Shown piece by piece: positions 18,354 to 44,891 of a DNA stretch of 64,000 nt. Position 1 is the first letter of the stretch, and each line of letters begins with the position of its first letter. Location: positions 124,001 through 188,000 of the forward strand of contig JACKQL020000072.1 of the NCBI GenBank assembly GCA_018296165.2, written 5' to 3'. Both the position numbers and the translations under genes were made by a program. The notes beneath the pieces are model-generated. The model did no database searches and was not told the origin of the DNA. It worked only from the letters and a program-made list of their open reading frames with translations. The DNA is from Termitomyces sp. T153. Its lineage: Eukaryota; Basidiomycota; Agaricomycetes; Agaricales; Lyophyllaceae.

Positions 18354-18893
18354 ATGAAGGCTAAATCAGCAGGACAGACAGGGCATCGACTTACAAGGAA
18401 AATCACCAAAATCAATCCGATCTACAAGCCTCTCGAATTCGAATTTGCCGGCCGTGGACAGTGCGCGGAATGCTATATGGTCGGTAACGAGCAGATCAAG
18501 ATTTCATGCAGCCCAAGTGCTGCGCAACTACCTGGGACAGCGTTGTTGTGCATGTCTGGTTGACTCTTGATTGGTTGGACGGCGTCGTCGAGGGGGGTTC
18601 GTCAACAACGATGAGTTCCTGTGTCTGGTTGAGGATCGGTTGGTCGTCGTTGCGCTCCAGTTTGACGACACAAGACAAAGACTTGCGCGCCTGAAGCTTG
18701 TTAATTCTGTGTAGTCATAGAAAAATCTCAACACTGACCTGTGACAGATGGATGGAAATGGTGGACCCTATGCAGATGTTATCATACAGGATCTCAAAAT
18801 TAGGCATTGTGGTCAGCTCTGTGCTGGTGTATTTGAGCTGAAAGATTGGCATTGTGATGGAATTATGAGAAAGAATGTGCATTTGTGATCATT
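18354..18893 (+). pseudogene. Small conserved coding-like frames in block A
   Basis: The frame 18,354-18,563 (MKAKSAGQTGHRLTRKITKI and on, with FAGRGQCAECYM) and the frame starting at about 18,750 (MDGNGGPYADVIIQDLKIRH, ending near 18,891) are both present in the right arm at mirrored positions. The middle frame reads NDEFLCLVEDRLVVVALQFD with stops around it. They look like exons of a truncated gene trapped in the arm. I recognise no family, and conservation between the arms may only reflect recent duplication. Confidence 0.3.
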
Positions 18894-19056
18894 TGGCTCC
18901 CTAACTCTAGATTAGATTTGCACTGAGGAGTATGACAAGACAGATCCCGAACGAAATGTAGCTCTCACACCACGTAGCTGTCAGAGGACCATGCAATACA
19001 TTCTATACCAAGCGAAAGTACATTGTATTGGTACACAACAAGTCTAACAACTGCAA

Positions 19057-21134
19057 CTAGAGAGGCACCTCAGTGGTCGCGGGACTTTCTAGGCGGCGTG
19101 AATGAGGGGTGTTGGAGAAGGATGGAGACTGGACGGACCTGTACTGTCCCTCTGCAGCGACGCTGAGCTTGTCAATCTCACCTTGGATGGTGGAGAGGGC
19201 CTCTGCGGCGGTGGAAAAGTAGAGAAGCTGGGCCTTGGCGAGCTCGTTGAGGTTCTTGATTGGTTCGGGCTGCAAGGGAGTGAGTATGAGTGTAACACAT
19301 TGTACGGCATGCGCACATTCTCCAAGACGGTCTTCATGAGAGTGATGGCGACCTCTGTCTTTTGCATGAGATCGTCCTCAGCATTCTCGACCTCGAGCCT
19401 GGCATGCTCCTGTTTAGCGGGACTAGCATTCTTGAGGCTGTTGTTGGGAGTGATGAGCGGAGGTGAGGACGACGAGAAAAGGGACGACAGACATCTGCTT
19501 TGCGGCATCAAGCTTGAGCCTGCTGACTCTGACGGCCTGCGTGGCCTTGATGGCGACGGCGATGCTGGTGTTGAGGGTGGTCTGCCAGGTGTGGAGAAAG
19601 TTGAGCTGGACGGCGGCGTCATGGTCAAGGCAGGCGAGGGCAACCCTCTCGTAGGCGGCGGCGTAGAGGGTGAGGGCCTTGGCGAGGGCGTCATCGGGGC
19701 CAGGGGCGGTGGCCTGGACGGCGTTGCTGGCGGTGGCGGTGGCGCGGAGGAGGGCGTGGGGGAGGGTCTTGTGCTGGATGGGTGGGGGCGCGGTGGGGGA
19801 TGTGGGGATGGGGAGGTTGGTGCCCTTGAGGTTGGTGGCGGCAAAGGAGGAGATGTTGTAGGAGAGGAAGGAGGAGAGCTTGTGGATGGACTCCTGGATG
19901 TGCGTGAGGTAGTCGTAGGACTTGTGCTTGTAGACTTTGGTGATCCTGCGGGGCATGAGGGGGGTCAGCGCGGCAACAGCAAGCTTACTTGAGAAGAGTG
20001 AGGTAGGCCATGCGGAGGGCGTCGACGCGGGCCTCAAGGTCCTTGTACTCTGCGGACAGTGAGCGAGAGTGTGTGCAGGGGTGCAGACCAACCTTGGGGC
20101 AGCTCCGTGATCTCGTCGGGCGCAACCTGCCCGAGGCGCTCCTTGGTCGCCTGGACGCTCGAGTTGAAGCCCTTGGAGATCTTTGAGCCGCCCTGCGCAA
20201 AGTTGATGTTGCTGAGGCTCAACGAGAGTTTGTGCCAGCCATCCATCGTGGGTGAGGATTGCACAGCCACAACAGGTCTGGTCACAGTCACGCGCGTCAC
20301 AGCCACACGCATGGACGTCTTCCTCTGCACATCCCCACCGACACCGCCGTCATACCCGGCATCCACGGCTGTCCTCTTGCCACCCTTGTTTGCCGCTGCC
20401 AACCCCTTCCCATGCCCGCCGCTGCCGCTGCCGGTCGAGCCCGAGTTGCCTGTTGTGCGCGCGTCATCACGGCCCGCCTGCGCCCCATCCCTGCTGACAC
20501 CTTCTCCGGGTGGGATCACATAACTAAGAAACCTCGGCTTTGCCCCTGATAACTGCTCCAAGGCGGCCTCGAATTCTTGTTCAAACGACTTGAGATGGAA
20601 GTTGGCAATGGAGACTTCTGGCTCGAGAGTAGGCGGGAAGTACTCGAGCTTGTTAGGTGTAGTGCCAGATCTTTGAGATTCAGGGGTAGGTACAGTGGTG
20701 GATGTAATGCAGATTGCGAGGTGGCTCGGGCTCGCCGCAAACATGCTTGCTGGACGTGCGTTCCCACCTCGTGGAGAGGTGAACATCTCAGTAGGTTTGG
20801 TGACAGACAAAGTCGCGGGGACGTGCATGGTCAGTCTTGGTACAGCAGGAGTAGCCTCAGATCGGGTATTGAGTTTTGGTTCTAGATCAGGTATAGATTT
20901 CGTGGTATTCATCGAGATCTTTGGTTCTTGGGACATTGAGGGAGTTTCAATAACTGGTGGTTGGTATGATGGAGGGGCGGCAAGAGGAGAAATCTGCACC
21001 GGGAACATGTCTTGAATATTTGCAACGACCTTGCCGAGATCATGTACAGCGTTGACAAGGCTGAAGGAACCCAGAGGAGAAAGTTCACTTTTGCTTGTGG
21101 TTGACGAAGATGCAGTGCTTTCGGCTGGGTTCAA
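19057..21134 (-). CDS. Gvp36-like BAR-domain protein with an extra N-terminal extension (captured cargo, left arm)
   Basis: The BAR part begins MDGWHKLSLSLSNINFAQGG at 20,246. Five exons join cleanly: DEITELPQ|EYKDLEARVDALRMAY, then ITKVYKHKSYDY, a long exon with the paired helices, NASPAKQEHARLEVENAEDD, and PEPIKNLNELAKAQLLYF to the stop at 19,057. This matches fungal Gvp36/BAR_2 proteins, which bend membranes in Golgi vesicle and endocytic traffic; the part looks full length and free of stops. Upstream, the same frame stays open to about 21,134, adding up to some 290 residues rich in S, P, T and G with a VTRVTVTRP motif, not expected in Gvp36. No in-frame ATG starts that frame at 21,134 (the first codon is TTG); an ATG at about 21,190 in another frame could serve through an intron. 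Introns are kept, so capture was from DNA. High CpG and GC set it apart from other genes of the element. Confidence 0.75.
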
Positions 21135-21299
21135 ATGTTGGCGAGGTCAGTGTCGTGTACGACGAGGAAGAGGACGTGTTCACTGACATTTTCAGTTCCG
21201 AAAGAGTGTTGGATGTGCTACAAGCTGGCCAGCGACTGTAGATATCAGGGTAACAGAAGATCTAACTTCAAGTGAAGCGATGAATGGAGGTGGCACACA

Positions 21300-21327
21300 C
21301 ACTTCAGGAAATGTAGCGTGTTTCCTG
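21300..21327 (+). repeat. Solitary internal copy of the element terminus
   Basis: CACTTCAGGAAATGTAGCG and eight further bases match the left end (17,800-17,827) exactly and in the same orientation, then diverge. It lies in the 5' region of the BAR gene, about 55 bases from block B. It may be a relic of a nested insertion or of the end of an older element copy. Confidence 0.8.
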
Positions 21328-21723
21328 TGAAGATGCTTGACCATGAGTTCTGCAATGGTTGCCGATGTTTTGGTGACCTGCGCTTGTGGTAAATTGAGAA
21401 ACAGAAAAGAATCGAAAGCTTAGATCAATAAACTTATGCAAAACGATGAAAGGAACAATCTTTCACCACAGATTACATTGCACGATTCTCAATGTTTGAT
21501 ACAATTAACTAGTTTTTCCCTCCCTTGTTCCTTTTATCAGCCTGTGGTATATGAGAAAACTGAAGAAATATAAACAAAAAGAGAACTGACCTTCCAGCAA
21601 TCATGCCTGTTGTATATCCCCTCCTCCCCATTGATCTCCCTAATCACCTTCACACTCCAAGAGACCCAGACACACTTGATCCAGTCAATACATTTGTCCC
21701 CCTTTACTTGACCAAAGCATTAC

Positions 21724-22038
21724 TCACCGATGGCAAGGCGTTCGACAAATATCCCATCGCCTCAAGCTCCCTTCGAAAGTGCGCCCCCCGATGCTTCTCC
21801 CACAAATGAGCCACGAACTTTGCGGCGCGAACATCGTTGGCGGATCAAATGCACATGTTGGTGCTGCGCTAGATAGAGGCCTAGAATTGAATCGAAAGAC
21901 ACTCAAAGCAAAAGACCGTACGCGAATCTGTTGGCTCTTCTCCAGCTCGAGGACAGGGTACCCTTTGAGTTGAGACTTGCTCGGGTGAAGGACAGGGCAG
22001 CACATCGGGATCTTGAAGGACTTGGTGTGCCTTGGCAT
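21724..22038 (-). pseudogene. Small two-exon coding fragment in block B (left copy)
   Basis: From ATG at 22,038 the first exon reads MPRHTKSFKIPMCCPVLHPS and ends QQIR before a GTACGG donor. After a CTAG acceptor the second exon contains NDVRAAKFVAHLWEKHRGAH and FRRELEAMGYLSNALPS, then a GTGAGT donor. An in-frame TGA stands just before the NDVRAAK part. It looks like the start of a real gene that lost its remainder. I do not recognise the family. The right arm carries the same sequence at 42,963-43,277. Confidence 0.4.
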
Positions 22039-22140
22039 ATTGACGGTGTAGATGATGCTAGAGAAGCGTTAAGTAAGTCAAAAGAAGGAAATAGAACGAC
22101 TTACTTGTCAGAGATGGTGGTTCAAGTGAAGGAGACGGTC

Positions 22141-22482
22141 AAGGAACCAGACACCTTAAATACGACAGAGCAATGGGGTCTTCTGAAGAATTGGAACTTG
22201 GAATATTATCCCAGAGCTCAGACAATCATAAGAGTGAGTGAGTTTGGGTGAACCCAGGTGTCATGAGTAAGGGATAAAGCTTGGGTGAACCCAGAGCTCA
22301 TCAATGGTAGTATTAACCAGACGCCTTAAATACGACAGAGCAATGGGGTCTTTTGAAGAATTAGAACTTGGAATATTATCCCAGAGCTCAGACAATCATA
22401 AGAGTGAGTGAGTTTGGGTGAACCCAGGTGTCATGAGTAAGGGATAAAGCTTGGGTGAACCCAGAGCTCATCAATGGTGGTA
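22141..22482 (+). repeat. Tandem duplication, about 171-bp unit, two copies
   Basis: The segment from CCTTAAATACGACAGAGC at 22,153 to the motif-rich end near 22,311 is repeated from 22,324 onward with few changes (offset 171). Each unit has two copies of the near-palindromic GGGTGAACCCAG motif. The right arm has the same duplication (about 42,520-42,860), so it predates duplication of the arms. Confidence 0.8.
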
Positions 22483-23060
22483 TTCGACACACAGAAGAGA
22501 CTGTCTTGTTCCCAAGGCACCTTACAGGTGTACATCAAGCCCCATGCCTTGAAAGTCACTCAGCAAAGGAGGAAATTTGAGAGTTGGGGTTCCCAAACCC
22601 AAAACTTGAGAGGGAGTGTGAGTGAGTTTGGATGTACCCAGAACTCGTGAGGGAAGGATAGAGCTTGGGGGAACCGAGTTCAACTCCAGTCCTACTTTGA
22701 TGGAGTTTGATGATTATGTAATTCACCCATGGAAAACACAATGAGCGTTGAGCGAGTAGGTGTGATCTGCAAGCAATATATTGGAAAAATAGATCTTCGA
22801 GGTAGCGTCATGGTGATACAGATGCCTTAGTCCATCAAGGCTACGCCATAGATAAATCCTTAAGATCACTCAGCACAACAGGAGTTTGAGTTGAGCCAAG
22901 AACTAGAACCAAGTGATCACGAGTTTGGGTTGGACCCAGAACTTCACAGGCAGTGGTAGAGCTTGGATGAACTCAGAAGTGATACAGAATTCAACAAGCT
23001 TGGGTGAACCCAGAACTCGTGAGGGAGGGACAGAGCTTGGGTGAACCCAGAGCTCATGGT
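22236..23060. repeat. Cluster of near-palindromic GAGCTTGGGTGAACCCAGAGCTC motifs
   Basis: About ten copies (for example near 22,241, 22,278, 22,412, 22,449, 22,999 and 23,035) with spacing of roughly 35-170 bases. The unit is an imperfect palindrome around GGGT-GA-ACCC, flanked by GAGCT. Irregular spacing and lack of unique spacers of one length exclude a CRISPR array. Confidence 0.8.
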
Positions 23061-23352
23061 CGTTTTCAACAAGTCAAAGTCTGACTTGACTGGTGTTTGA
23101 TTCTTACATAACCCATCATGGGAACGTAATCAGCAATAAGCGGAATCATAGATAAGATTATGTATGAGCGCGTCGAGCGACAAAGACTACATTTTGCAGA
23201 TATGATATATGTAAACAAAATTGATTCATTTGAGAGCCAAACTATAATAGTAATGAGTTCTGTAACTGACAGACAGTAAGTGCAAACAAGACTACTATCA
23301 TCTGCCAGACTACATGTATCTAGACTTGGCGCCACAAGTTATTTAGATCTGA

Positions 23353-26300
23353 TCAACATAAAGAGACTAGATCAAAATGAGTGAGTTTATTCATCTTGAG
23401 CTCAGAGAAAATACAAACACGTCTCAGTGATATAACCACCCAGTTGTCCTCCCATTTCAACCTTGCTGCGTGAGCTTCAATGTCTGAAATCATCACGGCT
23501 CTAAGCCATGGGTCCAATTCAGTACTCCAAATGCTTGCTCCCAATTCCTGATATTTTGAGTAAAGGTCAAAAGAGAATGAAGTTGAGGGCTTCAGATGAT
23601 ACCCAACAATCCATGTGCCATGAAGAGTTTGATCGTCCCTCACTACAGGAAACTCGAGAATGTTCTCAATCATAAATGGGGCAGAGACGTTTTGCAAGAA
23701 GACAAAGCTGTTGCCCTTGTGCTTCTCACAAGAGGTGTATGACAAGCCAAAGTGATGGATTTGAGATTTAATGACTGCTTTCGGAGGAATTTTGTGATAC
23801 GGCTTGGCACGTTCAATTGCCAGACCATATCCTTCGGGAAGTGGGGTTAATTTCCCTTTTAGAGTATCGTCATCATCATCATTTACTTCAGTCCTGTCAA
23901 ACAAAATGAGGGTAAAAGCATTGTCCTCTTCAGTCGCCAGGATCCCATGAGTCTGTGGTCGAACAAGAGTCTGAAACATGGACTCGCATTCTTTGATGAT
24001 GTTGGGGCAGGCCTGTTTGAGGAAGAGCCCTCTTACACTAGATGTCAGATGCCAAGCGTGCACAATTGTCTCTTCATATTCACCTGAACTGCGTGTTATT
24101 AATCGAAGCCAAATGAATACGTTGGTCTTACCTTTCTTGTAATTCGTTGACATTCGCTGCAATTGCCCAATTGCACGCTCAAAAGGAAAGGCCCACCAGC
24201 CTGAAGCAGGACCAAATAATTTGAGAAAATCAGGAATGTGGAAGGCCATGTGATGATTGGGGACACATTCATAGAATGGGAAGAGGCGAGCAAGCTCTGT
24301 TCAATACTCAGTCATGAGCTCCAAATAACACGCTCTATGATTTGCACTAGTCACTCGAGAAGTCGCCACTTGGACAGCCAAAGAAAGCAGCATTGTCAGA
24401 TGCAGGAGATTTTTCTTTTGTTCGTCACCATCCCACCATAAGCGGGTCAAAGATATGGGAAGATTTACACAGCCGACCATCCGCCATTGATCCGCTTTGA
24501 GCTTGGGCCCACTTGATAAGAGAGTTGTTGGGACTGAAGTCACCCAGGAAGGTCTGATAATATCTTCGAGGTCAGCCCAGATAGTCTCCATTTCATCTTC
24601 TGAGAAGATTTCCCCATGAAACAATGTGACATCGTGTTCTGGTTGCTGAAGTCGCTGGTAGAACAATCTAAGTCAACGTTGTTCATACACATTGACTGAT
24701 TTATACATACCCAGAGAAGGATTGCACGAGCATAGTCCTCTCTAGTCCCTTTATCTCCCAGCAATAGTTGAATACCTAATCCTGTCGCCATACGAATCAG
24801 GGCTTCTTTGCGCAAATTTCTCCATCTCTTGACTGCTTTATCAAAAGCCGGGCCTTCAGCGCTGAAATCAATGGGCCGTTGAAGCCACCAGCAAAACGTA
24901 TATACATCATTGAAAACCTTCGGCTCAGTCTCTGAATCCGGCTTGGGATTGGCTTCATTGTAGTGAAAATTCACCACAGTCAACTTTGCTGGAGCTCCCT
25001 TCTTGGTCTTGCACTTCTTATTGTTGGCGTCATAACCAAGGATGTTCTGGAAGTGCTCTTTAATCAAACCAAGAAAGAGATTATGCATAACATCAACAAC
25101 AAGGTATGTTGATGCCTTGTAGTACAGAAGCCGGAGAAGCTCGGTCCATCGCAAACCCGATTTGCCAACAAGAGCAGACGCCTCTTCTGGAGAAGAAGCC
25201 AAGAAGTAGTTCTCAGCCAAGTCTCAACATTCTTCATCAGTTCGGAATTTCCAGCATTTAACATCGAAATTGCTGAGTTTGTGAGATGTCCTGTTGCACC
25301 AGCAGCGGGAACAAAAGTACTCGTGATGGATTGAAGTAAAGCCTCCAACTTTTCGAACCATCATGAGATCACAAATTACAAGAACGATGGCACACAGAAT
25401 CAGTCGACCGTAAGGGAAGTCGGCGGTCTGGCTAAAGGCAACACCTGACCAGAGATCCAAGAATTCATTGATGATGGGGCACAAGTATGGGTTCATTCCG
25501 TCCAGTTGGGCCTCAGGTTCCTTGGGGCCAGGAATGATGTGGATAAACATGTTCTCTGGTCTATACCGTTCCTTGATAGGTAAATTCAAGCACGCAATGC
25601 ATATCATGCCAATAGAGATCTTCTTTCCGGCTTGTTTGTTGCCCAAAGGGTTGAAGAAATCCACACTGAGTGAGAAAAGATAATGACCAGCATTTTCACC
25701 TCCATAGACGCTAAAGTGAGATTTTCCATCGGGGCCTTTGAAATTTTGGATAGCAGAACCTTGAAAGATGTCCCTTAGTATTCCATCAGAAGGCATTTCC
25801 ATCCACTTCCAAGCCTGATCCATCTTTCTTTCATATGATTCTCGCGAGAGTAACCCGGCAAACCAATCTTTAAAGTCAAATACAATGTAAGGCCGGATGG
25901 GAACGTAGATGTCCAGTCGGCGGGTTCCTATTGACTTAGGACGAACGAGCAATTCTTCGCAGAGAACACCATGCCGAACAGCGTCACACTGTAAGGGGTA
26001 GACAGGTACTTTGCTGTGATCACCTGCTTTAACGTCGGGGAATTTGGGCCTGTAAATCGCATGACACTTTGGACAGGAAGCGTAAACCAAGGACTTTCCC
26101 TCTATGCGAAGGGGTTTCATAGTGGTGTGAATATTGACAGGAAATTTATCAAGGACGCCAGCGATGGGACGCGGAATAGATGGGAGAAAGGAAAAAGCGT
26201 CGCTTATGATTTTACTGCACATCTGGAATATCCAGACAGTTCCCCTACGAGGAAGGCGTAGGACAACATGGCAGACGGTGATCATGAAGACCACAAGTTG

Positions 26301-27038
26301 GAGGAAAGGTACCACTTTGCTAAAGCCGAGGAAAAAATGGTCACCTGAGGAAGAAAGAATCAGAGAACAATTCATGCACATTGCCATTGGTGACTCACTC
26401 GTGTTGAATTGACTGTGTGCGAGCGCCAGTGGCTCTGCAATTCGTGTGTCTAGCGCATTTGTCCATGACTCCGTTGTCTTGTTGAGAAAGCGCTGAACAT
26501 CCTGCTGTAGGGTGTCAACAACGCCGTGCATGTGCATGATGGCAGGAGTCTTGACTCTTCCAATGGTACGTAAACATGTAGTTTGCTCAACTAAAGTTTG
26601 CTTGATCGATTCTAGCGCCATAAGCTTGTCCGCGAACATATGGTCGCCTGCGTGAAACGGAGCCAAACCAATCACTTGCACCTTGGTGCGCAAAGATTCA
26701 AGTACACCCTCAATCTCGTTGAGACCAGCGACGAGTTTGCTCGCCCTGTTAATTGGTAAATTTGGCTTATCACTGGTTACAGGCGGAAACGTTGCCGGAT
26801 GCGCCGCAATATCGCTCAGCGAAAGATTGTTCATAGCAATTGCTATCTCAGCTTCGTGAGCCTTCAAGGCTCGTGCTTCGTATGCTAAGGCACGATCACC
26901 TAATCTCTGAGCCTTGTCCTCCTTTTCATGATTTCAAAGTGTCCTGGCGTCAACCAAGGTGCCACAGGTGCCGTCTGGAAGCCGATTCAGATGGCATTTG
27001 AATTTTGTGCAAGTGCAGATTTTGTCTTTCGGCAACAT
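23353..27038 (-). pseudogene. Tnp2-family (CACTA/EnSpm) transposase, with two in-frame TGA codons
   Basis: From MLPKDKICTCTKFKCHLNRL at 27,038 the frame gives the cysteine head typical of mushroom Tnp2 proteins, then an in-frame TGA at 26,934-26,936. The next open part (to 25,224) has CPKCHAIYRP, PYIVFDFKDWFAGLLSR and CPIINEFLDLWSG. A second TGA stands at 25,224-25,226, followed in the same frame by ENYFLASSPEEASALVGKSG and YKASTYLVVDVMHNLFLGLI, the D-x-M-H-N-L-F-L-G signature of Tnp2. After an intron come VTLFHGEIFSEDEMETIW, PSWVTSVPTTL and FGPASGWWAFPFERAIGQLQ, ending SLC at 23,353. Both TGAs sit where an arginine (CGA) would fit, so C-to-T change is likely. The segment near 26,140-26,400 has odd composition and may hide an intron. 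Tnp2 proteins cut and join CACTA elements, matching the CACTTCAGG ends. Confidence 0.8.
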
Positions 27039-27139
27039 CAAAGAGGTAGTAAAAGGGAGGGTGGCGATCGTAAGTAGCCAAGAGACAAAATCAATATGCA
27101 GACTAAGTGAGATAACATCTGGTGGAAACATCAATTAGT

Positions 27140-27545
27140 ATGACAAAGGTTCGCCATACAATGCTCTGTGGAAACAATTGAGAACCTCCTGCACCCTGTG
27201 CCCTGTCCCCTTCGAAATTATAGCTTAGTCAGCACATTTCATGCATATGAAAGGAAGGGCTGTAACTGCAGCCTGGGCCTGCTTCCAAGAAAATCTATGT
27301 AAGGAGTTGAAATCAAACATGTGCCAAGCGGGGATAACAATAAGCATACCGATTGTTATTGGACTCTTTTAGGCAGTCATTTTCTTTGTCCCCAGAAAGA
27401 CAAAGGGTTTCACAAGTTCCCGTACATGTGCGGGGCACAATACATGTGATAATGAAGAACAGATACTCATTAATATTCACATGATGAGAAGTTCAGTACC
27501 TCATACAACTTCATTTTCAAATTTTTCAAAGGTAACAAAATACAA
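27140..27545. other. Spacer between transposase and WD40 gene
   Basis: Lies upstream of the minus-strand transposase and downstream of the WD40 gene stop. It would hold the transposase promoter. No further structure was recognised. Confidence 0.4.
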
Positions 27546-29466
27546 TCAGATATTGAGATCGACAACGTGAAACGGCACTTCTACATCATCCACCTCGGCA
27601 GACTCTTCCTCTGATAACTCCGGCTTTGTGGTAGTAAAACTCTCCACCGTCAGGCGAGTAACCGTAACAAATCGAGTGATTGTGGAGACCTCTTTGGCCT
27701 GTGCACTAGTGATGGTCCAGATCGTAGTGTAAGATTGGGCACCGACCGCCTGGGTAACATACGAGAGGGTGACCGGACTCGCACTTTGCTCTGCGATATT
27801 ACTATCTACAGAAATAACGGGGGAGAGCACTGTATGTTCAATGGGTTGAGTGAAAGCGTCTGGAGCCGCACGATGGTGGGTGGCAAGATCTTGAGCGTTT
27901 GACTTGAAAAGCTGCACGGTTAGCGCTCTGACACCAGGGATGGGCTAGGGAGTGCGAATTTAGTACACAAAAAGATATCAAGGGAGGGGCAAGTAAACAA
28001 ACATTGACAAAGGGGACAGCCATCATTGGAAACAGTACCCACAATAACACAGCGGCATAGAGGACGCAGTAAGCAGCTTGTTTTGCAATAGAGAACCACT
28101 TTGCATAAACCACCATGAAGCCCGTTGCAAGCGGTTCATTGGCACTTTCGAAGGGCTAGATGACAAGTTGGTGAATGCAGACTTGATAGTGAATCAGAAC
28201 TACGCACCTCTTTCACCCACATATACACCTCAAAACCTCCCAAACTGGAGCCACCTATGATCATATCATACCCATCTTCATGTTTGGCGACTGCAATGAC
28301 TTGCATGAGTCCTAAGATACCATGAGCACAAATCATCAACCAGGGTTATATAACTCACCAGATCCAGACAACTTCTGCAATATTTTCTGAGTCACTGTGT
28401 CTACCACGTAGACCATTCCATGATTGCTGCCGCACACGATAATTTTGCCTTCTTCTACAAATACTCCTTGAATGATTCTACACCGGGTAGATGTAACACC
28501 TGGTATTGCTTCGGCTGGAGTACCAGGAAATCGGTGGAGTTGAAAGTGGCCTTGGGTGAGATTATGAGTGAACAAGAGGTCTTCACCAGGCGAAAGGGCG
28601 GCATGACCTCTGGAAGAGGCAGTCAATAATGCGGAGGACAATGGTGAGAAAAAGCACACATTGCACTCGTTAAATGCTTTTGCCACAGCTGGTTGGAGGT
28701 TTGAGCATCGATGCAAAGGCTGTAAAGGGTAAACTTGGATTCAACGTTGACCGTTCAGATACACCTACATTTCGCTGTTTTCAATCTTGGTGAGCAGTAT
28801 ATTCTGGCTACCAGCACCAAAGAGCTTGAGGCTTGCAGGGATGGCATCAGCCGTGGGTGGAATGACCCACAATTCCGTCATGTCAACTGCTGGGGGTTAG
28901 ACAAAGATGGGGTGACATAACTGCCAATACTTACCACCTGCACTGACGCTAAACAATTTGATTGTACCATTATGGCTAGCGACCACAAGTTGCTGGTTAG
29001 CATCATCACAAGCCTGGGTGGCAACGCTATTGTTGAACTCAAAGATATTGTAGACCTTGGAATACCTCTGAGAGAACCACTGGGACCATGATCAGGGAGG
29101 GACGACATTTCAACTCGAGATGACGTACAGAGGTTGAATTTGCACGGGGAATAAGGCAGATTGATCCTCGAATGGTCCCGACGCATATAGATTCACCCTT
29201 GTTACCAGCAGCATTTATAGTGAGACAAGTCAGAGTGGTGACTTTGCCCCACGTCTTATCGTAGAGGGTTTGTAGGGAGGAGAGATCCTTTGTGGAATAG
29301 ACATGGACATGTCCATCATCGCCTGAGAAATGATCAATTTGTGTAGTCAAGGCAAATTGAAAGACCTACCTCCTATTAAGACCATACTTGAATTGTTAGT
29401 GAAGGTCACAGCACTAACTGGGCCTTTGCTGCCTCTGAGGTCACCCTGAAGCTTGTATTCAGAAGT
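27546..29466 (-). CDS. WD40/beta-propeller protein with C-terminal membrane segment
   Basis: Exons read SEYKLQGDLRGSKGPVSAVT from 29,466, then GDDGHVHVYSTKDLSSLQTL, VASHNGTIKLFSVSA, a longer exon with IIQGVFVEEGKIIVCGSNHG and VYVVDTVTQKILQKLSG, and EDGYDMIIGGSSLGGFEVYM. These are blades of a WD40-like propeller, a scaffold for protein contacts. A hydrophobic segment follows (YCVLYAAVLLWVLFPMMAVP, about 28,075-28,015), then a polar tail with TRFVTVTRLTVES and an acidic end, stopping at 27,546. The start codon is unresolved: the first exon begins at a splice acceptor and no in-frame ATG lies between it and the divergent gene. One junction near 28,720-28,770 does not keep frame in my reading. 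Similar WD40-plus-membrane proteins are known to me from mushrooms without a defined role. It is probably cargo. Confidence 0.55.
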
Positions 29467-29694
29467 CTGGCAAGGGGCAGAGGTCAAAAGGAGGGTAGAA
29501 AATGAGAAACTGATGCTGACAAGCGTGCAAGAGTGAAGTGGATAATCCCTTGTCAAAAATTGGGTGCGATTACATAACAATGAAACAAAGGTCTTTGTTG
29601 TCGCTTTAAGGCTCAAAGCGCGTTTGTAAATCAATAGAATTATATATAACGCGCGCCAGGAGATGGAAATGTATCTGTTTCCTGGAAAACTACA
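29467..29694. promoter_or_regulatory. Divergent intergenic region with TATA-like box
   Basis: Lies between the minus-strand WD40 gene and the plus-strand gene starting at 29,695. A TATATATAA-like string stands at about 29,639-29,648, some 50 bases upstream of the plus-strand ATG; it is nearly symmetrical and could serve both directions. Confidence 0.4.
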
Positions 29695-30385
29695 ATGAAC
29701 CTCTATGTTGAAAGACCTTTTCCCTTGACTGCATCTCAAATCAAGTTTACAGTTCTTCCGCCCGCCTCGCTGCCCCCAACTGCTCCAGGCATGGAGTTTG
29801 GTGATTACATTTTACACCGCAATAACCCTGGGAACAAGAGTGATGGAGAACCTGAGGTTGAGCCTCGCCGCTCCCAGAGGTGTTCGGGTAAGAAATTTCT
29901 CTGGCCCAATGGCGAACCAGGAAGGCCCAACAGTGGTGGGTTCAATTTGAGCTCGGAGCTTGTCAAGACTGGTTGGACTATCCAAACTGTTGAACGCTTT
30001 TTGGTGGGCAGTCATACAAGATCAACTTACATAATGACCTGATTTTCTGAACAGGAAGATGTGTACGAATTGGCCAAAAAGAAATTGGATTTGACCAAGA
30101 GCTATCAAAAGCAGGATAACAACGAGATAAAGAAGTTATGCAAAGAGGTACACGTGGACAGTTCAAGATGAGGCTCGAATAACCTCATCTTAATGCGTTC
30201 GGCAGATTATGAGGGACAAGAACTGGCTTCATCTAAAGGACTACGAGAATTGCTGGCCAGTAACTTCCTTGCTGAAGTTGAAACTGAAGAACGGCACTGC
30301 ATCAGCTTGCAGGCAAGAGATGAGGGCTACCCATGAGCGCTTGCAAGCTGCCATGAACAGAAGGGGAATAAGCCCAGATACTTAA
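29695..30385 (+). CDS. Intact three-exon gene of unknown function
   Basis: Exons 29,695-30,003, 30,055-30,147 and 30,206-30,385 join in phase at GT-AG introns of 51 and 58 nt and give a 193-residue protein without stops. It starts MNLYVERPFPLTASQIKF, has a proline-rich head, a basic/acidic middle (EPEVEPRRSQRCSGKKFLW), then a charged helical second half (VYELAKKKLDLTKSYQKQDN, IMRDKNWLHLKDYENCW). No domain is recognised. Cysteines are few and there is no signal peptide or membrane segment. Unlike most of its neighbours in the element it has no nonsense codon, so it may be expressed. It is divergently placed to the WD40 gene. It could be an accessory protein of the element or captured cargo. 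Confidence 0.6.
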
Positions 30386-35768: not shown

Positions 35769-36723
35769 CATGAAAGTCACATCTCGAGGGTATCAGTACT
35801 ATTGTTACATGTGTATATAAAGGGTATGCAAAGCTGTATTCTATATTCTAATCCATTTGTATCCGTCGAGGGAAACGGAACATTAAGTTTTTGGGGATAT
35901 AGAGTCGACCCTGATGCACTCTGCCTACAAAACTAGTGGTTTCCAAATCAACTCACATGAAAGAGATTGATGAAAGGCCCATACATACCAATGCACGGCA
36001 AAGTTGGCAAGAGTGTTATCCATAGCTTGGATGTTTACAAATTCTTTTTCTTTCCCCTTTTTCAAGACGAAAATGTCGCCTCGCCAGCTCCCTGCTGCCC
36101 ATGGCAAAATTTGACGGTTAAATGGTAAGTTCACATGGTTCTTGAAAAACAGATGGAACTGAGCTATTCTGTGGTCACCTGTGATGGTGACGAGGGCATG
36201 GTGGATATGGGGTTGGACTTTGTGGTTGGCGAGGATAAACTCGAGGTGTGGTCGCCTCCCGCAATAATTGGTTTGACATTGAACTCTCTTGGTGATAGGT
36301 TGTATACACAACGCACCATAATAATGCCCACCAAGAAGTGTTGTATAGTCCTACTCTGGGTCAACATCATACAATCTATCACGAATAAGAAAGCCACTCA
36401 CGCATGTGGTAGGGGTGAACGGTTCCAAAGTATTGACCATCGTGACGATTAATATGCAGTAGCGATGAGCACGTTGCAGGTTCGACAAGGAAGGAAACAA
36501 GCGATATTTCTGTCTGAGAGGGTAAGCAAGCAGATTTTTATGCGGTCATGTCCTTTGTTTTCATTTTGTCCTTTGTGATCATTTCAACAAAGGAGCGGAC
36601 TTTAGAATTTCTAACATATGTTTTCTTTGAAATTCAACCTTTCAGCCTTTGTCCCATATCAGTTCCCCATTATCATCCTCACCACCTGTGGAAGTCAGGC
36701 AATACCTACATAGTCCAGATACA
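35769..36723. other. Spacer between the two large genes
   Basis: Contains only short frames on both strands, none recognised. It probably holds the 3' end of the preceding gene and the promoter of the coiled-coil gene. No copy of the GGGTGAACCCAG motif was seen here. Confidence 0.4.
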
Positions 36724-39700
36724 ATGAACGGTGACTTCGAGGTATGTGAAGTCCCATATTGTTTCTTTGTAATTTCTGACATCGCATTGTTTTCTAGGCT
36801 ATCGTCACCATTGGAAATGACCCGGCGCATCACAAACCTTTGAATAGACAAGGCGCGACTATGATGTCTGTAGACACCCAAGAGGAACCTCTGTTCCATA
36901 AAGGTTCCCTGTTACCCAAACATATTATAACGATGGTCAACAAGCAAAACGAAGAAGGGGTCGGTCATGTCAATGATGCTCCTTCCAAGAAACGTCGACA
37001 AGGAAATGAAGAATTGACCAGCTGCCATGAACTAGTTCTATATACAGTAGGTCGCTCATTCATCCAGCCATCCTTGTTTGACTTGTCTCTTGTAGGGCTT
37101 GGACAAGAACTCAAGTCAAGATGACAACGACACTGCTTCGCTGAAGCTCCAGATTCTCTCTCTGGAGCAGCGGGTGAGCTCTGCGCAAGTCATTGAAGAA
37201 TCCATACTGATCGACTTGCTAGCTTGCCGAGAAGATAGCCGAATCGAATGAAACACAGAAACATCTTGCCGATGTATGTCATTCTCGCATAAATCTGTCA
37301 GAATACCCATGACACCATCCACACCTAGATCAAAAGTACCAACACCAAACTTGAGCACACCCTCAACACTCAATGCTCTGACTTGCAACGCAAGACAATA
37401 GAATTGGAAGACAGTGCAGAACAAGTTGCGCGGCTTCAAGCTTACGCTGATCGTCACCATCACGATGAGATCGCCAAGGAGAAAAACATTAGATTTCACG
37501 CGCAAAGAGCCCTAGTAGCAATGACTATTCTGGCGCAGACTTTCACCGCCGAGTGCGACTCTTCTTCGAAGCAACTGACCGTCCTTCAAGCCGAGCAGCA
37601 ACGCCAAAGGGATGCTGAAGCAGCGTTGTTAGAGGAATATCAGGTGGGTTGTAATACTCGTGCTTCTACCCTTTTAAAAATGTATCGAGTCTCTTTAGGA
37701 CCAGATGGAAAGCAGCGAGCAACAGCTACTACTATTGCAAGGAGAGTGCAATAGGCTTCGATTGGATTTGAAACAAATCAAGGGCGATCTCGACAACACT
37801 ACGAATAATAAAGAGATTCTTGTTGCTACCATTGGACATCTGAAGATTCAATTGTCGACCCTCCAGGAAACTCATCAAAATACCTTGGAACAACTGGGGT
37901 CAGTCGAAAGAGAGCAAAAGAGTCTTCGAGAGTGTATGGCTGCGGACCAGAAACAAGTCAACGAGAAAATTGTGAGTGCTTATCAAGATCAACGAATGAA
38001 TTATCATTCTAACTGAAAACAATTTCTCAGGCTGAGCTGGATGCCGCCAAAATTGTCATATCTGACTTTCAGGCGAAGTTGGAAGCCCAGTCTGAAGAGT
38101 CAACAGTGGGTCACTATTCATCGCCTCCTTTCGCTCCGGTCATTCTTTGTCTGCTTTTACTCTCTGCTTACTATCCAATACTTAGGTGATGATTCAAAGA
38201 CTTCAGAGTCAATTGCAGACGGCCGAGGAAGAGCAACAGATCCTGGAAATTCAAATATCTGTTAAAGAGGGGCTTCTCCGACAGAACACAGTAAGTGTTT
38301 GCCCATCGACTTCTCATCATTTTTGCTCTGACACTTTTGTCAGGCTGAGTTAGCAGCGTCGAAAGACGTACAATCAGAAATGAGCATGCAGTCTGCAAAG
38401 GCTTCTGTCAGTAACTGATTCATGCGTTTTTCTCTTCTCCGTTGATTCCTTGTTGTTAGGCCGCTATTCAAGATCTTCAGAGCCAATTGACGAGTCTTCA
38501 GAACACCCATCAAAACACTCTGAGTCAACACCAGGAGGAATTATCGACTGAACGGAAGAAGGTTCAAGAGAATGCAGTAAGCCTCTGGCATACCATTTCT
38601 CGTCATTCCAGTCAACTAAAACACCCTTTTTCTCAGGTTAAGCTGGCAGCTTTGGAGTCTGTAAAGTCAGATACCAGTACGCGGTCTGCAACAGAGGCAT
38701 CAGTTGGTCACTTCCTGCTTTCTTTTGTTCTTACTTATTTTTCAATGTTAGGCGCTTCAGGATCAATTGTCAGCTCTTCAAGAGGCACACCGAGCTACAC
38801 AAATTGAACGAGATAATCTTCAAGTTCAATGTGATCAAGCACTGAAACAGACGCAAGAGGCACGTTTACAACTTGATCAAGCGCAAAAGTTGATTGGCAA
38901 GCTCAGAGTTGTATGTCTTTCATTTTTTTTCACTTCCTTGGGTTTCCATCACCTCTGTCGCAGGAAAAGAGTACTCATGAAGACGCTGTGACCAAGCTTA
39001 AACAGAGGATTTCTGCTTTGGATGCTTTGGAAGGGAAGGTATCCACGCATCCAGCACAATCGAATGAAACAACACAAGCTGAGCCCTCCGCTGCCGAACA
39101 TCCTTCAGATGAGGATGTTGTACTCGATGTTGCAGACCAAAATGGATATGAACCTGACACGGAATCTGAAGACGACAGCGACCGAATGATTATCGACGTA
39201 GATGACATCCCCAGTACCACCAACTCGAGGCCTGCTCATTACAAAGGGCAGCAACAAACCGTCTCCGACTTTGCTGATGGAAGACCTTATCACGCTGGAA
39301 AACAGAAAGAAAATTCACCCGACCCATCAATGCCAGTCGACTACTGAGTAAATTCATACTATCTTTGATTATCAAATATCTGACTTGTTCTTTTCTCAAG
39401 CTGTTCGGAATGAGACCCCATTCTTTGCCATTCAGATCATGTGCATCATCTCAATCAGTTGCCTCCCGTACTCATGGGACTGCAGGAACTTCTCTTGCCA
39501 ATGATTCAATGCGTTCACCTCACATTTTAAGCGAGGTTCCTGATGACCATCTACTGCTTCGAAACCAAATGATTTGCTTGAGTCCCGCTCAGCAAGCGCA
39601 GCAATCACACACCTCTCGGAAGTTTTCAATGCCGTCCCACGTGTCGCCCGGTCCTCGTTCTGAGAGTGTTCGTTTGCCACCTACGATTGTGACTCCTTCG

Positions 39701-41154
39701 AAAAAGTCCAAGCAACGCAACCGTGATGATTTCGTACGGACGGACAGGCTTCCTAGAACTGGTCGATTGAATTACCAGCCCACTTTGTTGCCCAAGATTA
39801 ATGAAGAACTGGTTCTCACCCCTTCTGCTCGCCTTCACAACTCTTTTCAATCGTCTACCACTCCTCGAATGGCAAAGAGTTCAAGACTTTGAGAGACCAG
39901 AGAGGATGGCAAGAGCACTTCTTCAAATGACGCAACTCAGCTGTCTGTCCCTTTCGCTAGGAGACTCCAAGGTGGGGCTGCTAGTGATAACGGCGGTGGC
40001 AGTGACATTGAAGATGAAGAAGACAACGACGAAGACAACAAAGACAACGACGACGGCATTGTCTATGACAGTGATGACATCAGACCTACTCTTAGAAGAC
40101 TAAAGGTTGAAATCTTGGCCTTACGCAGCGATTTTGATGTAACTGCGCAGCGTTTCGGTGAGCCCGGACGTAGAAAAGCATTGGTGCAGCGGACATTCCC
40201 TTTCAAAGTACCGCAAGGCCAAGAAGTACGAACTGAACAGCACAACGATACCATGCGCGTTGTCCAGAAAGAGATGCGGTCCCTCCTTGGAACGAAGAAG
40301 GATAGGGAATTCCCGAATATTGTCTCAGAAAGACCAGAGCTACTGGCCATGCCCTGGGACGTGTTCAATTTCTGTTTCGATGACAATGCTCCTGGACCAA
40401 ACCTCCAGCACCCACAGATTTATATCGAGGCTCCTGAGAATATATGGAATGTCTCACTTGCTTGGCAATTTGCTGACATGGTGACACAGAAGTATCCTGA
40501 GAAGGACCTGTCTATAGACATAGTTGCGCGACATTTCCTCAATCGTCTTGACACTCTTCGGAAGGCTTGTGCAAAGGCCTGTCCAAGGGCCAATGAACAG
40601 CCGGAGGACATTCTTGTATGCATGACAGCCGAGTTTCAAGCTATGAGTCATCGTAAGCGAGTTAGGATGAGACAGAAACAAGTATGTGTATCCTTTCTCC
40701 ATCTTTTCATTGGCTAACTAGGACATTCAAGCTATACCTCGCGAGGAGCGGTCATTGTCAAGACCAAGTTGAATATGATAATAATCCGGCTTGGAACAAG
40801 ATGCTTCTCATGGTTAGATTTCTAGGAGTGGACGGCCAGAGTTCAGATGAGTCTGATGGTGGAGAATATAGAGTCAAAATTCAAACTTGGCGCGATCCAC
40901 ACGTTACCAGACTGCTTCGCTACATAGACCGAAGTCATCCTACCACTAACATCCTCGGAAATCGACTCCCTGGTAGTGCTCCTCGTATCCGTCAAATCAG
41001 CAAACGCGAAGAGACTACACGTCTTTACAGTGACATTCCTGCGAAGCTTCCCGCAAACTTCTACGACAAGGTGTGGTTCGAGACTCTGGTTCCTGGATTG
41101 CAAACCAAGTTGGACCCTCACCCAGTCCTTAACTTACCTCACTTGCAGAACTAG
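36724..41154 (+). pseudogene. Coiled-coil mushroom-specific family protein with many introns, two in-frame TGA codons
   Basis: Starting MNGDFE at 36,724, more than ten small exons join in phase and give a long coiled coil (for example TKLEHTLNTQCSDLQRKTIE, LRLDLKQIKGDLDNTTNNKE, QCDQALKQTQEARLQLDQAQ). An acidic stretch (about 39,110-39,200) and a polar, basic region (39,410-39,890) follow. TGA codons stand at 39,345-39,347 (right before an intron donor) and 39,890-39,892. The C-terminal part has a D/E/N-rich run, FPNIVSERPELLAMPWDVFN, SIDIVARHFLNRLDTLRKAC, an intron at about 40,682-40,732, then WRDPHVTRLLRYIDRSHP and FYDKVWFETLVPG to the stop at 41,154. I know the C-terminal part as a repeated Agaricomycete family of unknown role. 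It is directly followed by the same 3' flank as the transposase gene, which ties it to the element. Confidence 0.6.
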
Positions 41155-41159
41155 TTGAT

Positions 41160-42110
41160 ATGATTGATACATGTAGTCTGGCGGATGATAGTAGTCTTGT
41201 TTGCACTTACTGTCTGTCAGTTACATAACTCATTACTATTATAGTTTGGCTCTCAAATGAATCAATTTTGTTTACATATATCATATCTGCAAAATGTAGT
41301 CTTTGTCGCTCGACGCGCTCATACATAATCTTATCTATGATTCCGCTTATTGCTGATCACGTTCCCATGATGGGTTATGTAAGAATCAAACACCAGTCAA
41401 GTCGGACTTTGACTTGTTGAAAACGACCATGAGCTCTGGGTTCACCCAAGCTCTGTCCCTCCCTCACGAGTTCTGGGTTCACCCAAGCTCGTTGACTTCT
41501 GTATCACTTCTGAGCTCACCCAAACTCTATCACTTCCTCTGAAGTTCTGGGTCCAACCCAAACTCGCTCACTTGGTTCTATTTTTCTATTTTCTCTGAGC
41601 TCACAATCAATACACTCACTCATTTTGATCTAGTCTCTTTATGTTGATCAGATCTAAATAACTTGCGGCGCCAAGTCTAGATACATGTAGTCCGGCGAAT
41701 GATAGTAGTCTTGCTTACACTTACTGTCTGTCAGTTACAGATGTCATTTACTATTATAGTTTGGCTCTCAAATGAATCAATTTTGTTTACATATATCATA
41801 TCTGCAAAATGTAGTCTTTGTCGCTCGACGCGCTCATACATAATCTTATCTATGATTCCGCTTATCGCTGATCGCGTTCCCATGATGGGTTATGTAAGAA
41901 TCAAACACCAGTCAAGTCGGACTTTGACTTGTTGAAAACGACCATGAGCTCTGGGTTCACCCAAGCTCTGTCCCTCCCTCACGAGTTCTGGGTTCACCCA
42001 AGCTCGTTGAATTCTGTATCACTTCTGAGTTCATCCAAACTCTACCACTGCCTGTGAAGTTCTGGGTCCAACCCAAACTCGTGATCACTTGGTTCTAGTT
42101 CTTGGCTCAA
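41160..42110 (+). repeat. Tandem pair of shared 3'-flank repeats (offset 514)
   Basis: GATACATGTAGTCTGGCGGATG from 41,166 to about 41,580 is repeated from 41,680 to about 42,110 with few changes. Each copy runs through a CTGTCTGTCAGTTACA string, a TCGCTCGACGCGCTCATACA string and two or more GGGTTCACCCAAGCTC motifs. The same sequence follows the transposase stop in the left arm. Confidence 0.85.
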
Positions 42111-43645
42111 CTCAAACTCCTGTTGTGCTGAGTGATCTTAAGGATTTATCTATGGCGTAGCCTTGATGGACTAAGGCATCTGTATCACCATGACGCTACC
42201 TCGAAGATCTATTTTTCCAATATATTGCTTGCAGATCACACCTACTCGCTCAACGCTCATTGTGTTTTCCATGGGTGAATTACATAATCATCAAACTCCA
42301 TCAAAGTAGGACTGGAGTTGAACTCGGTTCCCCCAAGCTCTATCCTTCCCTCACGAGTTCTGGGTACATCCAAACTCACTCACACTCCCTCTCAAGTTTT
42401 GGGTTTGGGAACCCCAACTCTCAAATTTCCTCCTTTGCTGAGTGACTTTCAAGGCATGGGGCTTGATGTACACCTGTAAGGTGCCTTGGGAACAAGACAG
42501 TCTCTTCTGTGTGTTGAATACCACCATTGATGAGCTCTGGGTTCACCCAAGCTTTATCCCTTACTCATGACACCTGGGTTCACCCAAACTCACTCACTCT
42601 TATGATTGTCTGAGCTCTGGGATAATATTCCAAGTTCTAATTCTTCAAAAGACCCCATTGCTCTGTCGTATTTAAGGCGTCTGGTTAATACTACCATTGA
42701 TGAGCTCTGGGTTCACCCAAGCTTTATCCCTTACTCATGACACCTGGGTTCACCCAAACTCACTCACTCTTATGATTGTCTGAGCTCTGGGATAATATTC
42801 CAAGTTCCAATTCTTCAGAAGACCCCATTGCTCTGTCGTATTTAAGGTGTCTGGTTCCTTGACCGTCTCCTTCACTTGAACCACCATCTCTGACAAGTAA
42901 GTCGTTCTATTTCCTTCTTTTGACTTACTTAACGCTTCTCTAGCATTGTCTACACCGTCAATATGCCAAGGCACACCAAGTCCTTCAAGATCCCGATGTG
43001 CTGCCCTGTCCTTCACCCGAGCAAGTCTCAACTCAAAGGGTACCCTGTCCTCGAGCTGGAGAAGAGCCAACAGATTCGCGTACGGTCTTTTGCTTTGAGT
43101 GTCTTTCGATTCAATTCTAGGCCTCTATCTAGCGCAGCACCAACATGTGCATTTGATCCGCCAACGATGTTCGCGCCGCAAAGTTCGTGGCTCATTTGTG
43201 GGAGAAGCATCGGGGGGCGCACTTTCGAAGGGAGCTTGAGGCGATGGGATATTTGTCGAACGCCTTGCCATCGGTGAGTAATGCTTTGGTCAAGTAAAGG
43301 GGGACAAATGTATTGACTGGATCAAGTGTGTCTGGGTCTCTTGGAGTGTGAAGGTGATTAGGGAGATCAATGGGGAGGAGGGGATATACAACAGGCATGA
43401 TTGCTGGAAGGTCAGTTCTCTTTTTGTTTATATTTCTTCAGTTTTCTCATATACCACAGGCTGATAAAAGGAACAAGGGAGGGAAAAACTAGTTAATTGT
43501 ATCAAACATTGAGAATCGTGCAATGTAATCTGTGGTGAAAGATTGTTCCTTTCATCGTTTTGCATAAGTTTATTGATCTAAGCTTTCGATTCTTTTCTGT
43601 TTCTCAATTTACCACAAGCGCAGGTCACCAAAACATCGGCAACCA
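41585..43645 (-). repeat. Inverted arm block B, right copy
   Basis: Inverted match of 21,356-23,410, ending at the MIC60 fragment. At its inner end (41,590-41,647, plus strand read backwards from the left arm) it keeps the last codons of a transposase (SELTINTLTHFDLVSLC and stop), a relic of a second Tnp2 copy. Confidence 0.9.
42963..43277 (+). pseudogene. Small two-exon coding fragment in block B (right copy)
   Basis: Same sequence as at 21,724-22,038 in inverted orientation: exon one 42,963-43,079 (MPRHTKSFKIPMCCPVLHPS...), donor GTACGG, acceptor near 43,120, and a second exon with FVAHLWEKHRG. The in-frame TGA is shared, so it arose before the arms separated. Confidence 0.4.
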
Positions 43646-44891
43646 GGCTTGCGCTTGGACAACCTGAACCAAGTCAACTGCGGCCATGGGACGAGAAAGT
43701 GAAGACTCACCTCTAGTGCTTGCTCGACCTCTAACCTTTGTCGAGCAGCCTCAAGCCAATCATGCAGCAGGAGTTTTGCTGCACCACCCAATTGATTCAG
43801 TTCGTGCGCAGCGCTATCAAGGTCCTTCTCATTCAAGTAATATTCGGCCCTTGCAACCACACTGAGGACATCATTACTGGCAACCAATCCTTGTCGACGG
43901 AATCTGAGTCCGGAGAAGAGTTGGCTGGCAAGGTACGACAAAACACCTGCATTCTGATCAGGCACCAAAGCAACATGAACCACCTTAGGTGCAACATTGC
44001 TAGAGAACCATGATGCAAGATCGGCAAAAGGCTCGACACCAACATCCAGTACATCTGACGATTCAAGAGATTCCAAAGCGGCCATGACTACCGGGTCTTC
44101 ATGGGCACTGGTAATATGTCGCAAGATGTGGAGTTCCTTGCGGAAAGGTTTGCAAACCTGTGATACCAAGGTGGAGGAACTGAGGGTGCAGACAGCAGAC
44201 CAGAGAGCATGAACACACAGATTCTCGTCGAGATAGCTAGAGTTGTCGAGAGCAACATGTTCGAGACGCTCGAGATGTGAAGCAAGTTCTTCGAGCTTGC
44301 CAAGGTGTCCGCCTCGCTCTTGTTCAACCCTTACTTTGATGTCCCGGATCCATCAGCGCTGAAGCTCGACACCTTGAGCAATGACTTCTTCCTTCAGACT
44401 AAGATAGAGTCAGAGCCAAGGAAACTGCATGAACAGAAAAAGGAACTTACCGCTCGTTGATCAGTTCAGTCTGAGTCTGCAACTGGTTATGCAATTTCTT
44501 GTGATAAGATTGGATGAGTTTCTGCCTCTCCTGGTCAAAGAATTTCCTAAAATCATCTTCTTGGTTATCCAGCTTATCCTGAGCCTCCATCTCAAGTTCC
44601 AAAAGCTTCTGTGTATATTCTCACGCTTGTTCATCCAATTTTGATTCCAAGCCAATTCTCTCCTACTCCTTAGCCTTCTCAGTACTATCTGCAAGTGCAG
44701 TCAGGTCTGTCTTCGCAGATTTGAGAACATCCGCCACTTTTGAGGCGGCTGCGGGATTGGCGTTGATGAAGGAGGCGAGATTATCGATAGTACTTGCGAG
44801 TTGGGCAATTATGGGTTCAGATACACCAATCGACAAGACGCCCAGTACAATCAAAGGAAGAGGAACAGATTCCGAAGGTTTGGGTGCCTCT
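43646..44891 (-). pseudogene. MIC60: MIC60 (mitofilin) fragment, captured cargo of the right arm
   Basis: Reading down from 44,891: KPSESVPLPLIVLGVLSIGV, ASTIDNLASFINANPAAASK, then helical sequence with LDEQA-stop-EYTQKLLELEME, an intron (about 44,399-44,450) at INER|LKEEVIAQG, VRVEQERGGHLGKLEELASH, NSSYLDENLCVHALWSAV, DVGVEPFADLASWFSSNVAP and ARAEYYLNEKDLDSAAHELN, ending RQRLEVEQALE and, after an intron, VVQAQA. This is the coiled-coil and mitofilin C-terminal domain of MIC60, the MICOS core protein of mitochondrial cristae. The targeting peptide, membrane segment and last few residues are missing; the sequence stops exactly at block A and block B. Nonsense codons are one TAG and two TGA, all explainable as C-to-T from CAG and CGA. 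Retained introns show capture from DNA. Confidence 0.85.

Follow-up and report, generated by a model that had tools for sequence, protein, structure and literature searches.

Stacks of host DNA copies in both arms of a CACTA-type transposon of Termitomyces sp. T153

Introduction

DNA transposons are already known to capture host genes in plants, animals and ascomycete fungi, as are the Helitrons of Pleurotus. How transposons take up genes is still debated, often from single end products. For the Pack-CACTA elements of plants, a hybrid-element model is summarised in the sections of PMC13317346 and PMC8903248 covered here. The corresponding parts of PMC6431247 report CACTA elements of 16-20 kb from a red alga and gene fragments that fungal Helitrons have captured, and those of PMC12730594 report fungal EnSpm elements with CAC..GTG ends and 3-bp duplications. 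The present analysis concerns a stretch of 64,000 nucleotides, referred to as the window, from the basidiomycete Termitomyces sp. T153 (assembly GCA_018296165.2, contig JACKQL020000072.1, positions 124,001 to 188,000; G000:C72:124,001-188,000). The genome comprises 72.4 Mb in 307 contigs, and C-numbers denote contigs of this same genome. The window contains a CACTA/EnSpm-type transposon of 28.2 kb, in each arm of which host DNA lies between two shared blocks.

A first-pass annotation of the window, made from the sequence alone, had proposed repeated capture of host DNA at a fixed site in the arm. Repeated capture in one arm zone is strongly supported: other copies of the element carry other host genes there, and donors have been located. 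The slots, as these zones are called here, are stacks, with older captures overwritten or interrupted by those that followed.

Host DNA in the two arms of the window element

The element and its arm blocks are as follows.

17,800-45,988, strand not assigned: complete CACTA-type element (28.2 kb), with CACTTCAGGAAATGTAGCG at each end
17,800-18,919, + strand: left arm block A, to the point where slot types diverge
21,328-23,417, + strand: left arm block B, containing a 170-bp tandem repeat
41,583-43,645, - strand: right arm block B
44,891-45,988, - strand: right arm block A

That blocks A and B are nearly identical in the two arms, with unrelated DNA between them, had already been noticed. Self-comparison of the window gives 94.9% for A (17,797-18,911 against 45,992-44,891) and 98.9% for B (21,356-23,417 against 43,645-41,583), and the intervening DNA, at 18,911-21,355 on the left and 43,646-44,890 on the right, is unrelated. 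The 170-bp tandem repeat lies at 22,145-22,484 and 42,517-42,856; seven contigs (C79, C27, C56, C33, C119, C142 and C17) end inside it, so that the assembly breaks there.

The slots of the left arm (C72L) and right arm (C72R) contain the following.

18,923-19,000, + strand: ion-channel gene copy remnant, 78 bp; donor C42 (L051), 94.9%
19,014-20,501, - strand: captured BAR_2 (Gvp36-like) gene, introns kept; donor C46 (L020), 88.7%
20,246-20,093, 20,049-19,989, 19,945-19,493, 19,437-19,317 and 19,269-19,057, - strand: predicted exons of the BAR coding sequence
20,502-20,608, - strand: AROM (ARO1) gene copy remnant, 107 bp; donor C122 (L052), 98.1%
20,610-21,299, - strand: host fragment, in pieces 20,610-21,135 and 21,136-21,299; donor C15:244,200-249,000 (L078+L050)
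21,300-21,327, + strand: relic of the element's own terminus, 28 bp
43,647-44,890, - strand: MIC60 fragment; donor C13 (L030/L066), 95.2%

Read from A to B, the left slot consists of ion channel (78 bp), BAR (1,488 bp), AROM (107 bp), C15 fragment (526 + 164 bp) and terminus (28 bp). The BAR gene is complete and has kept its introns, as the first-pass annotation had stated, and it is the cargo of 19,014-20,501 only. The accompanying picture of one gene per slot does not hold, for the rest of the left slot is made up of three other host fragments and the 28-bp copy of the element's end. 'Two cargoes' was right in that the two arms differ, and oversimplified in that the left slot is a stack. With exon limits predicted from the alignment of donor and copy, the BAR copy in the window has five exons and 333 codons, open without an internal stop. 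The donor open reading frame (ORF) at C46 matches PF10455 BAR_2 (E 3.5e-28), and the BAR copies at C56 and C79 share the same stop at codon 17.

The C15 fragment lacks 1.1 kb of donor sequence between its two pieces and stops exactly where the element terminus starts. The terminus relic agrees at 31 of 32 bases over 21,300-21,331, against 22 of 32 for the next best forward match in the window. At the joint between host DNA and terminus, the donor has GGCACACA followed by GCTGATG, whereas the slot has GGCACACA followed by CACTTCAGG. The whole of the left slot can be read as a left half of C42 lineage and a right half of AROM/C15 lineage, with BAR at the seam.

The right slot is simpler, with 1,244 bp of MIC60 between A and B. 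The fragment matches PF09731 (E 1.2e-38) and is interrupted by stops, which agrees with its earlier description as a truncated MIC60. It is the remnant of a 3.16-kb capture, attached to B by a deletion, and the joint is TGGTTGCCG. This sequence had been taken for the B-side border of the slot; it is the deletion joint of the right arm, between MIC60 and B, and other slots share another border.

Changes private to the window copies are largely CpG transitions: 49 of 54 in the BAR region (compared with the donor and C56) and 22 of 25 in MIC60 (43,647-44,890). The matching totals in sister copies are low (C56, 8; C142, 2; C6R, 3). This pattern suggests that the window copy was methylated. For BAR, comparison with the donor gives a pN/pS of 0.42, and comparison of two copies with each other one of 0.54; because CpG transitions account for 49 of the 54 changes private to the window copy, these ratios give no reading of selection.

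Slot borders across the family

For comparison across the genome, 23 arms were taken from at least 40 scored A places and at least 40 scored B places, two lists that overlap. The 23 slots are whole or partial and include both window slots; the A side could be aligned in 21 and the B side in 20. C16L1 and C16L2 were read about 2.1 kb into the slot, short of B; C25 has no located A, and C120L has no usual A border. The left slot of C6 is known through search matches only, C56 and C79 were used for BAR, and C119, C27 and C33 (604,962) are represented by matches and partial loci.

Among the scored A copies, 36 of 40 extend to position 1,110-1,115 of the 1,115-bp query, and the other four end early (at 857, 857, 909 and 1,073). 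Host DNA starts at 18,911 in the five slots of the MIC60 group and at 18,919 in the six slots of the ion-channel group. In ten further slots a common stretch without donor match runs beyond 18,919; these slots either reach their first donor match after another 200 bp or more, or have none. Departures from A thus vary (18,911, 18,919 or further in) and share no single base, contrary to the proposal of a fixed site. On the B side, AGATGCTTGACCAT is common to 20 of 20 aligned slots, preceded directly by the terminus relic in ten and by older shared sequence in the other ten. The borders that slots have in common are largely common by descent.

Donor loci

Host cargo is present in 20 of the 23 slots and matches nine loci on nine contigs of the same genome.

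C46: BAR gene, 88.7%
C13: MIC60 and neighbour, 93-96%
C122: AROM, 93-98%
C42: ion channel, 91-96%
C15: region 244-248 kb, 86-95%
C85: 94-96%
C121: 94-97%
C8: 88-97% in main pieces
C31: GH31 glycosidase, 90-91%

The longest contiguous match per donor is 0.8-3.2 kb at 88-96%; since each of the nine has such a match, chance is excluded. The search for donors of the two genes first noticed in the window thus ended at C46 for BAR and at C13 for MIC60. Domains found in donor regions are BAR_2, Mitofilin, Ion_trans, DHQS_C with EPSP_synthase and SKI, and Glyco_hydro_31. The donor regions of C15 and C85 have long ORFs (789 and 1,074 codons) without a Pfam match, that of C121 adjoins a Gtr1/RagA gene, and that of C8 has a weak MatE match. 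The donor genes that were checked extend past the captured part: at C13 the first part of Mitofilin adjoins and extends past it, and at C122 shikimate kinase adjoins the captured AROM piece. A search with AROM gave 296 hits, and those listed, at least 120, include one from Grifola frondosa. The cargo is colinear with genomic DNA, introns and intergenic DNA are kept, and the donors are still in place. It was therefore genomic DNA that was copied. None of the nine donor places is among the A and B matches listed.

Arm blocks and donors together account for nearly all of some slots (2,683 of 2,700 bp in C72L, 1,498 of 1,501 in C72R and 3,934 of 4,088 in C17) and for little of others (436 of 4,701 in C25, 131 of 3,501 in C120L and 159 of 4,201 in C29L). 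A tenth candidate donor, C9:1,099-1,101 kb, was dropped; it adjoins a match to the element interior and was taken to be an old copy of the element. Because C29L and C2 match C9, they are counted as slots without a host donor. The old element copy on C9 (L072, 1,099-1,106 kb) has an arm similar to the C29L and C2 slots.

Layers within slots

Other slots carry other successions of host DNA. C142 and C6R have, after A, 3,163 contiguous bp of C13 (MIC60 and neighbouring DNA), about 430 bp of AROM, C15 pieces, the terminus and B. In C17 and C16a, A is followed by ion channel, 2.5 kb of C85, ion channel again, about 600 bp of C8, about 150 bp of older slot and B, so that the C85 piece is nested within C42 sequence. 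C16L1 and C16L2 have 627 bp of C13 after A, and then C121. The C42 (ion-channel) and C15 lineages are joined directly, without filler, in C15R. In C15L, a stretch of about 38 bp of slot sequence is present on both sides of a 1,721-bp AROM insert; the two copies are identical at 34 of 38 positions against at most 25 in 1,000 shuffles, and C33b has the AROM insertion site without the insert. In a further slot (L038, C3:676,200-681,000), the AROM fragment is partly tandem-duplicated, running through donor positions 1,853-3,344 and then 3,085-3,555.

Several copies of the same filled slot are present in the genome. Where both slots of one element could be compared (C72, C15, C3, C120, C29 and C16:635,834-673,376, the last with a partial left slot), the arms differ in six of six cases, with partial sharing of about 1 kb at the B side between the C15 slots and of about 1.5 kb between the C29 slots. 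The possibility that all copies would carry the same gene is thereby set aside: other host genes occupy the zone across the slots read.

Truncation and nesting suggest an order for these layers, in which C15 would have preceded AROM, AROM preceded C13, and C13 preceded C121; likewise, C8 would have preceded the ion channel, and the ion channel both C85 and BAR. At least nine donors are needed, yet this is not the same as nine independent insertions at one base pair.

Class of the element

The predicted transposase is encoded inside the element.

25,227-26,933, - strand: transposase ORF, PF02992 Transposase_21 (tnp2)

The PF02992 match (E 1.1e-07) is over the curated cut-off; the two ORFs next to it (24,543-25,223 and 23,356-24,300) have no Pfam match. 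Among the matches listed, 91 of 95 relatives of the transposase have PF02992, and those that are named are all from fungi (Gymnopilus, Tephrocybe, Trametes and Austropuccinia). Both termini are CACTTCAGG, giving the element 5'-CAC..GTG-3' ends, and CAT is repeated directly outside them (17,797-17,799 and 45,989-45,991) as a 3-bp duplication. Such duplications are exact in six of the nine elements with both ends read (CAT, ACA, CAT, TGA, CTG and CTA). In two further elements a duplication emerges once a single terminal base difference is tolerated: CCA with one altered terminal base, and CAT with one additional A at the left end; the CTA and CCA duplications and the C29 case were judged by eye. 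The element at C16:393,458-424,728 has no matching 3-bp duplication (TCT against CTG). On the strength of CAC..GTG-type ends, 3-bp duplications and a tnp2 ORF, the window element is assigned, from its sequence features, to the CACTA/EnSpm type as a member of a large fungal family.

Host-derived DNA lies between the terminal repeats, as in Pack-CACTA and Pack-TYPE elements, which are non-autonomous and without a transposase. The window element would behave like a Pack-TYPE element, yet is not classed as one because of the predicted transposase ORF inside it. Helitrons have neither inverted terminal repeats nor a target duplication, and the inverted repeats and 3-bp duplication set this element apart from them. 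A search of a plasmid collection gave no match.

Two further features of element ends were observed. A near-palindrome of 86 bp (17,809-17,894; 85% identical to its own reverse complement) lies just inside the element end and recurs at many A copies. Two element ends on C16 (L006 at 672 kb and L007 at 423 kb) have the same outer flank over the extent compared; together with the unmatched duplication of C16:393,458-424,728, this could reflect segmental duplication or recombination.

Origin of the layers

Fourteen joints were read with both partners. Ten of these have no shared base, one has two shared bases and three have 1-20 unmatched bases, positions being set at BLAST ends, where diverged bases may be lost. 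Two of the ten joints without overlap are deletions within cargo, and one has a 6-bp word in common two bases away. Microhomology that might have guided capture is mostly absent among the 14.

From the donors, colinear cargo, nesting, arm differences and joints, we infer, with a probability of roughly 0.65, that unrelated host DNA was added layer upon layer by break repair in a tolerant zone, with the C15 layer coming from a neighbouring element. The zone lies about 1.1 kb from the end in each arm, between A on the outside and B on the inside, two blocks retained by most copies, and collects copies of host DNA. Where it broke or a gap opened, unrelated host DNA would be copied or joined in as repair, the joints sharing little sequence or none; at times the halves of two slot lineages would be joined with host filler between them, as may have happened with BAR in the window. 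The AROM insert of C15L, between its copies of about 38 bp, has the pattern that filling of a staggered break would leave. The layers other than C15 fit the break repair with host filler that is argued for animals in the covered parts of PMC8277862, although microhomology is less here. For the C15 layer, an element may have inserted at the C15 locus beside another copy and lost most of its outer end; the end of the other copy could then have mobilised the intervening host DNA, so that 28 bp of terminus stayed attached to host flank. This layer would go back to a hybrid between adjacent elements, in line with the Pack-CACTA proposal in the sections of PMC13317346 and PMC8903248 covered. Cargo may gather in the arm zone through tolerance of insertions, possibly aided by proneness to breaks.

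Several points weigh against this interpretation. The donors lie outside the element family only as judged by the A, B and interior matches listed; three of the 23 slots (C120L, C29L and C2) have no match to any of the nine donors, and the queries included neither C120L nor the 4.2 kb that precede the C15 piece in C25. The joints share less than template switching usually leaves, and end joining fits them better; in the parts of PMC8277862 covered, shared sequence of 1-36 bp (median 2) is given for at least one breakpoint in 67.6%. Slot borders inherited from a common ancestor do not count as separate hits, and a hot spot is therefore not demonstrated; no break, intermediate or excision product was seen. 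A true capture slot, that is, a break-prone site kept by the element and repeatedly taking host DNA in both arms, is unlikely. If it did exist, the family would continually record and reshuffle host genes, and could carry a complete gene together with its introns.

Capture without any preference for the zone is a possible, if tentative, alternative: host fragments would enter anywhere by ordinary break repair, and only insertions in a dispensable arm zone would survive and be amplified. The border position does vary, from 857 to 1,120 bp from the end. Among the best 5 of 87 candidate places scored for the interior, the C15 element matches 26,950-41,000 end to end at 94-95%, and the 11-kb insertion in the interior of the C15 copy looks like an ordinary retrotransposon. 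In the 8 kb of this insertion that were read (L082/L083, C15:532,500-543,700), one ORF has chromodomain and Tf2-type SH3 matches and a longer ORF has no domain match; the insertion looks like a Ty3-type retrotransposon. A further interior insertion measures 1 kb. These data favour the arm zone as the site where host cargo is lodged, and fit a hot spot as well as tolerance. Tolerance alone sits less easily with the C13 and C42 captures, whose junctions with A are no more than 8 bp apart (18,911 and 18,919); a pair of events is a small sample, however, and one capture could have exploited the scar that the other had left.

In the model developed for Pack-CACTA, taken as the sole mechanism, every cargo would be host DNA from between nearby elements of a tandem array, mobilised by a hybrid with complementary terminal deletions. 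The relic that this predicts, host flank followed by 28 bp of terminus, occurs in the left slot of the window and in nine others. Only one of the nine donors is seen to end at an element terminus, however, and the AROM, C85 and C121 pieces, which are embedded in other slot sequence or abut it, do not read easily as inter-element DNA. The nested layers also speak against it as the only mechanism, which is improbable. From the contig ends in the repeat of B one might suspect that the slots are chimeras of the assembly, or else that other mobile elements have simply inserted there. Both are highly improbable, as the cargo matches host genes with introns, and the C42-C85 patchwork recurs at C17, C119 (partial) and C16 with differing outer flanks. 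Nor were ends of another element noticed at the joints read, which answers the earlier concern that these might be unrelated insertions with ends of their own.

Comparison with known systems

The descriptions compared here are limited to the covered parts of each source. Pack-CACTA and Pack-TYPE elements of plants (PMC8903248, PMC13317346) likewise have CACTA-type ends around host DNA; they are characterised as non-autonomous elements whose cargo lies between the ends, whereas here both arms of a 28-kb element with a tnp2 ORF carry cargo, and layers are overwritten. Tgm-Express1, a soybean CACTA element (PMC1947982), contains five unrelated host gene fragments with introns, which is the same in kind. 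It is a single 5.7-kb element, and no series of copies with differing cargo at one slot is described in the part covered. Animal Pack-TIRs (PMC8277862) are also elements with terminal inverted repeats and host fillers, explained by break repair under gap-filling or fork-switching models, but 59.8% of their donors are on the same chromosome and microhomology is more frequent.

Among fungi, EnSpm elements with a TET/JBP dioxygenase gene (PMC12730594) are likewise of CACTA type, with 3-bp duplications and an extra gene. They differ in that one cargo gene has moved between transposon lineages; serial host fragments are not mentioned in the portion covered. Transduplication by fungal hAT and Tc1/mariner elements (PMC3538342, PMC6710886) similarly involves DNA transposons that amplify a host gene, though in ascomycetes and in other superfamilies, and the histone H3 copy of P. 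fijiensis is without introns. Pleurotus Helitrons (PMC4289320) are, like the present family, basidiomycete transposons with captured gene fragments, and differ in their rolling-circle mechanism. Capture by fungal CACTA elements is absent from the covered parts of PMC10853768, PMC10799480 and PMC6431247, and serial host-gene capture by such elements is not described among the matches listed from the open-licence literature, as judged by title and start of abstract.

The matches listed from that literature include no fungal CACTA element with both arms serially overwritten, and the family extends the record of CACTA-type gene capture to a fungus. Within a single genome this one family presents donors, sites that lack a given layer, slots with few and with many layers, an insert-flanking duplication and a fossil joint between host DNA and terminus. 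With this full record in a single genome, the order and kind of capture steps become readable.

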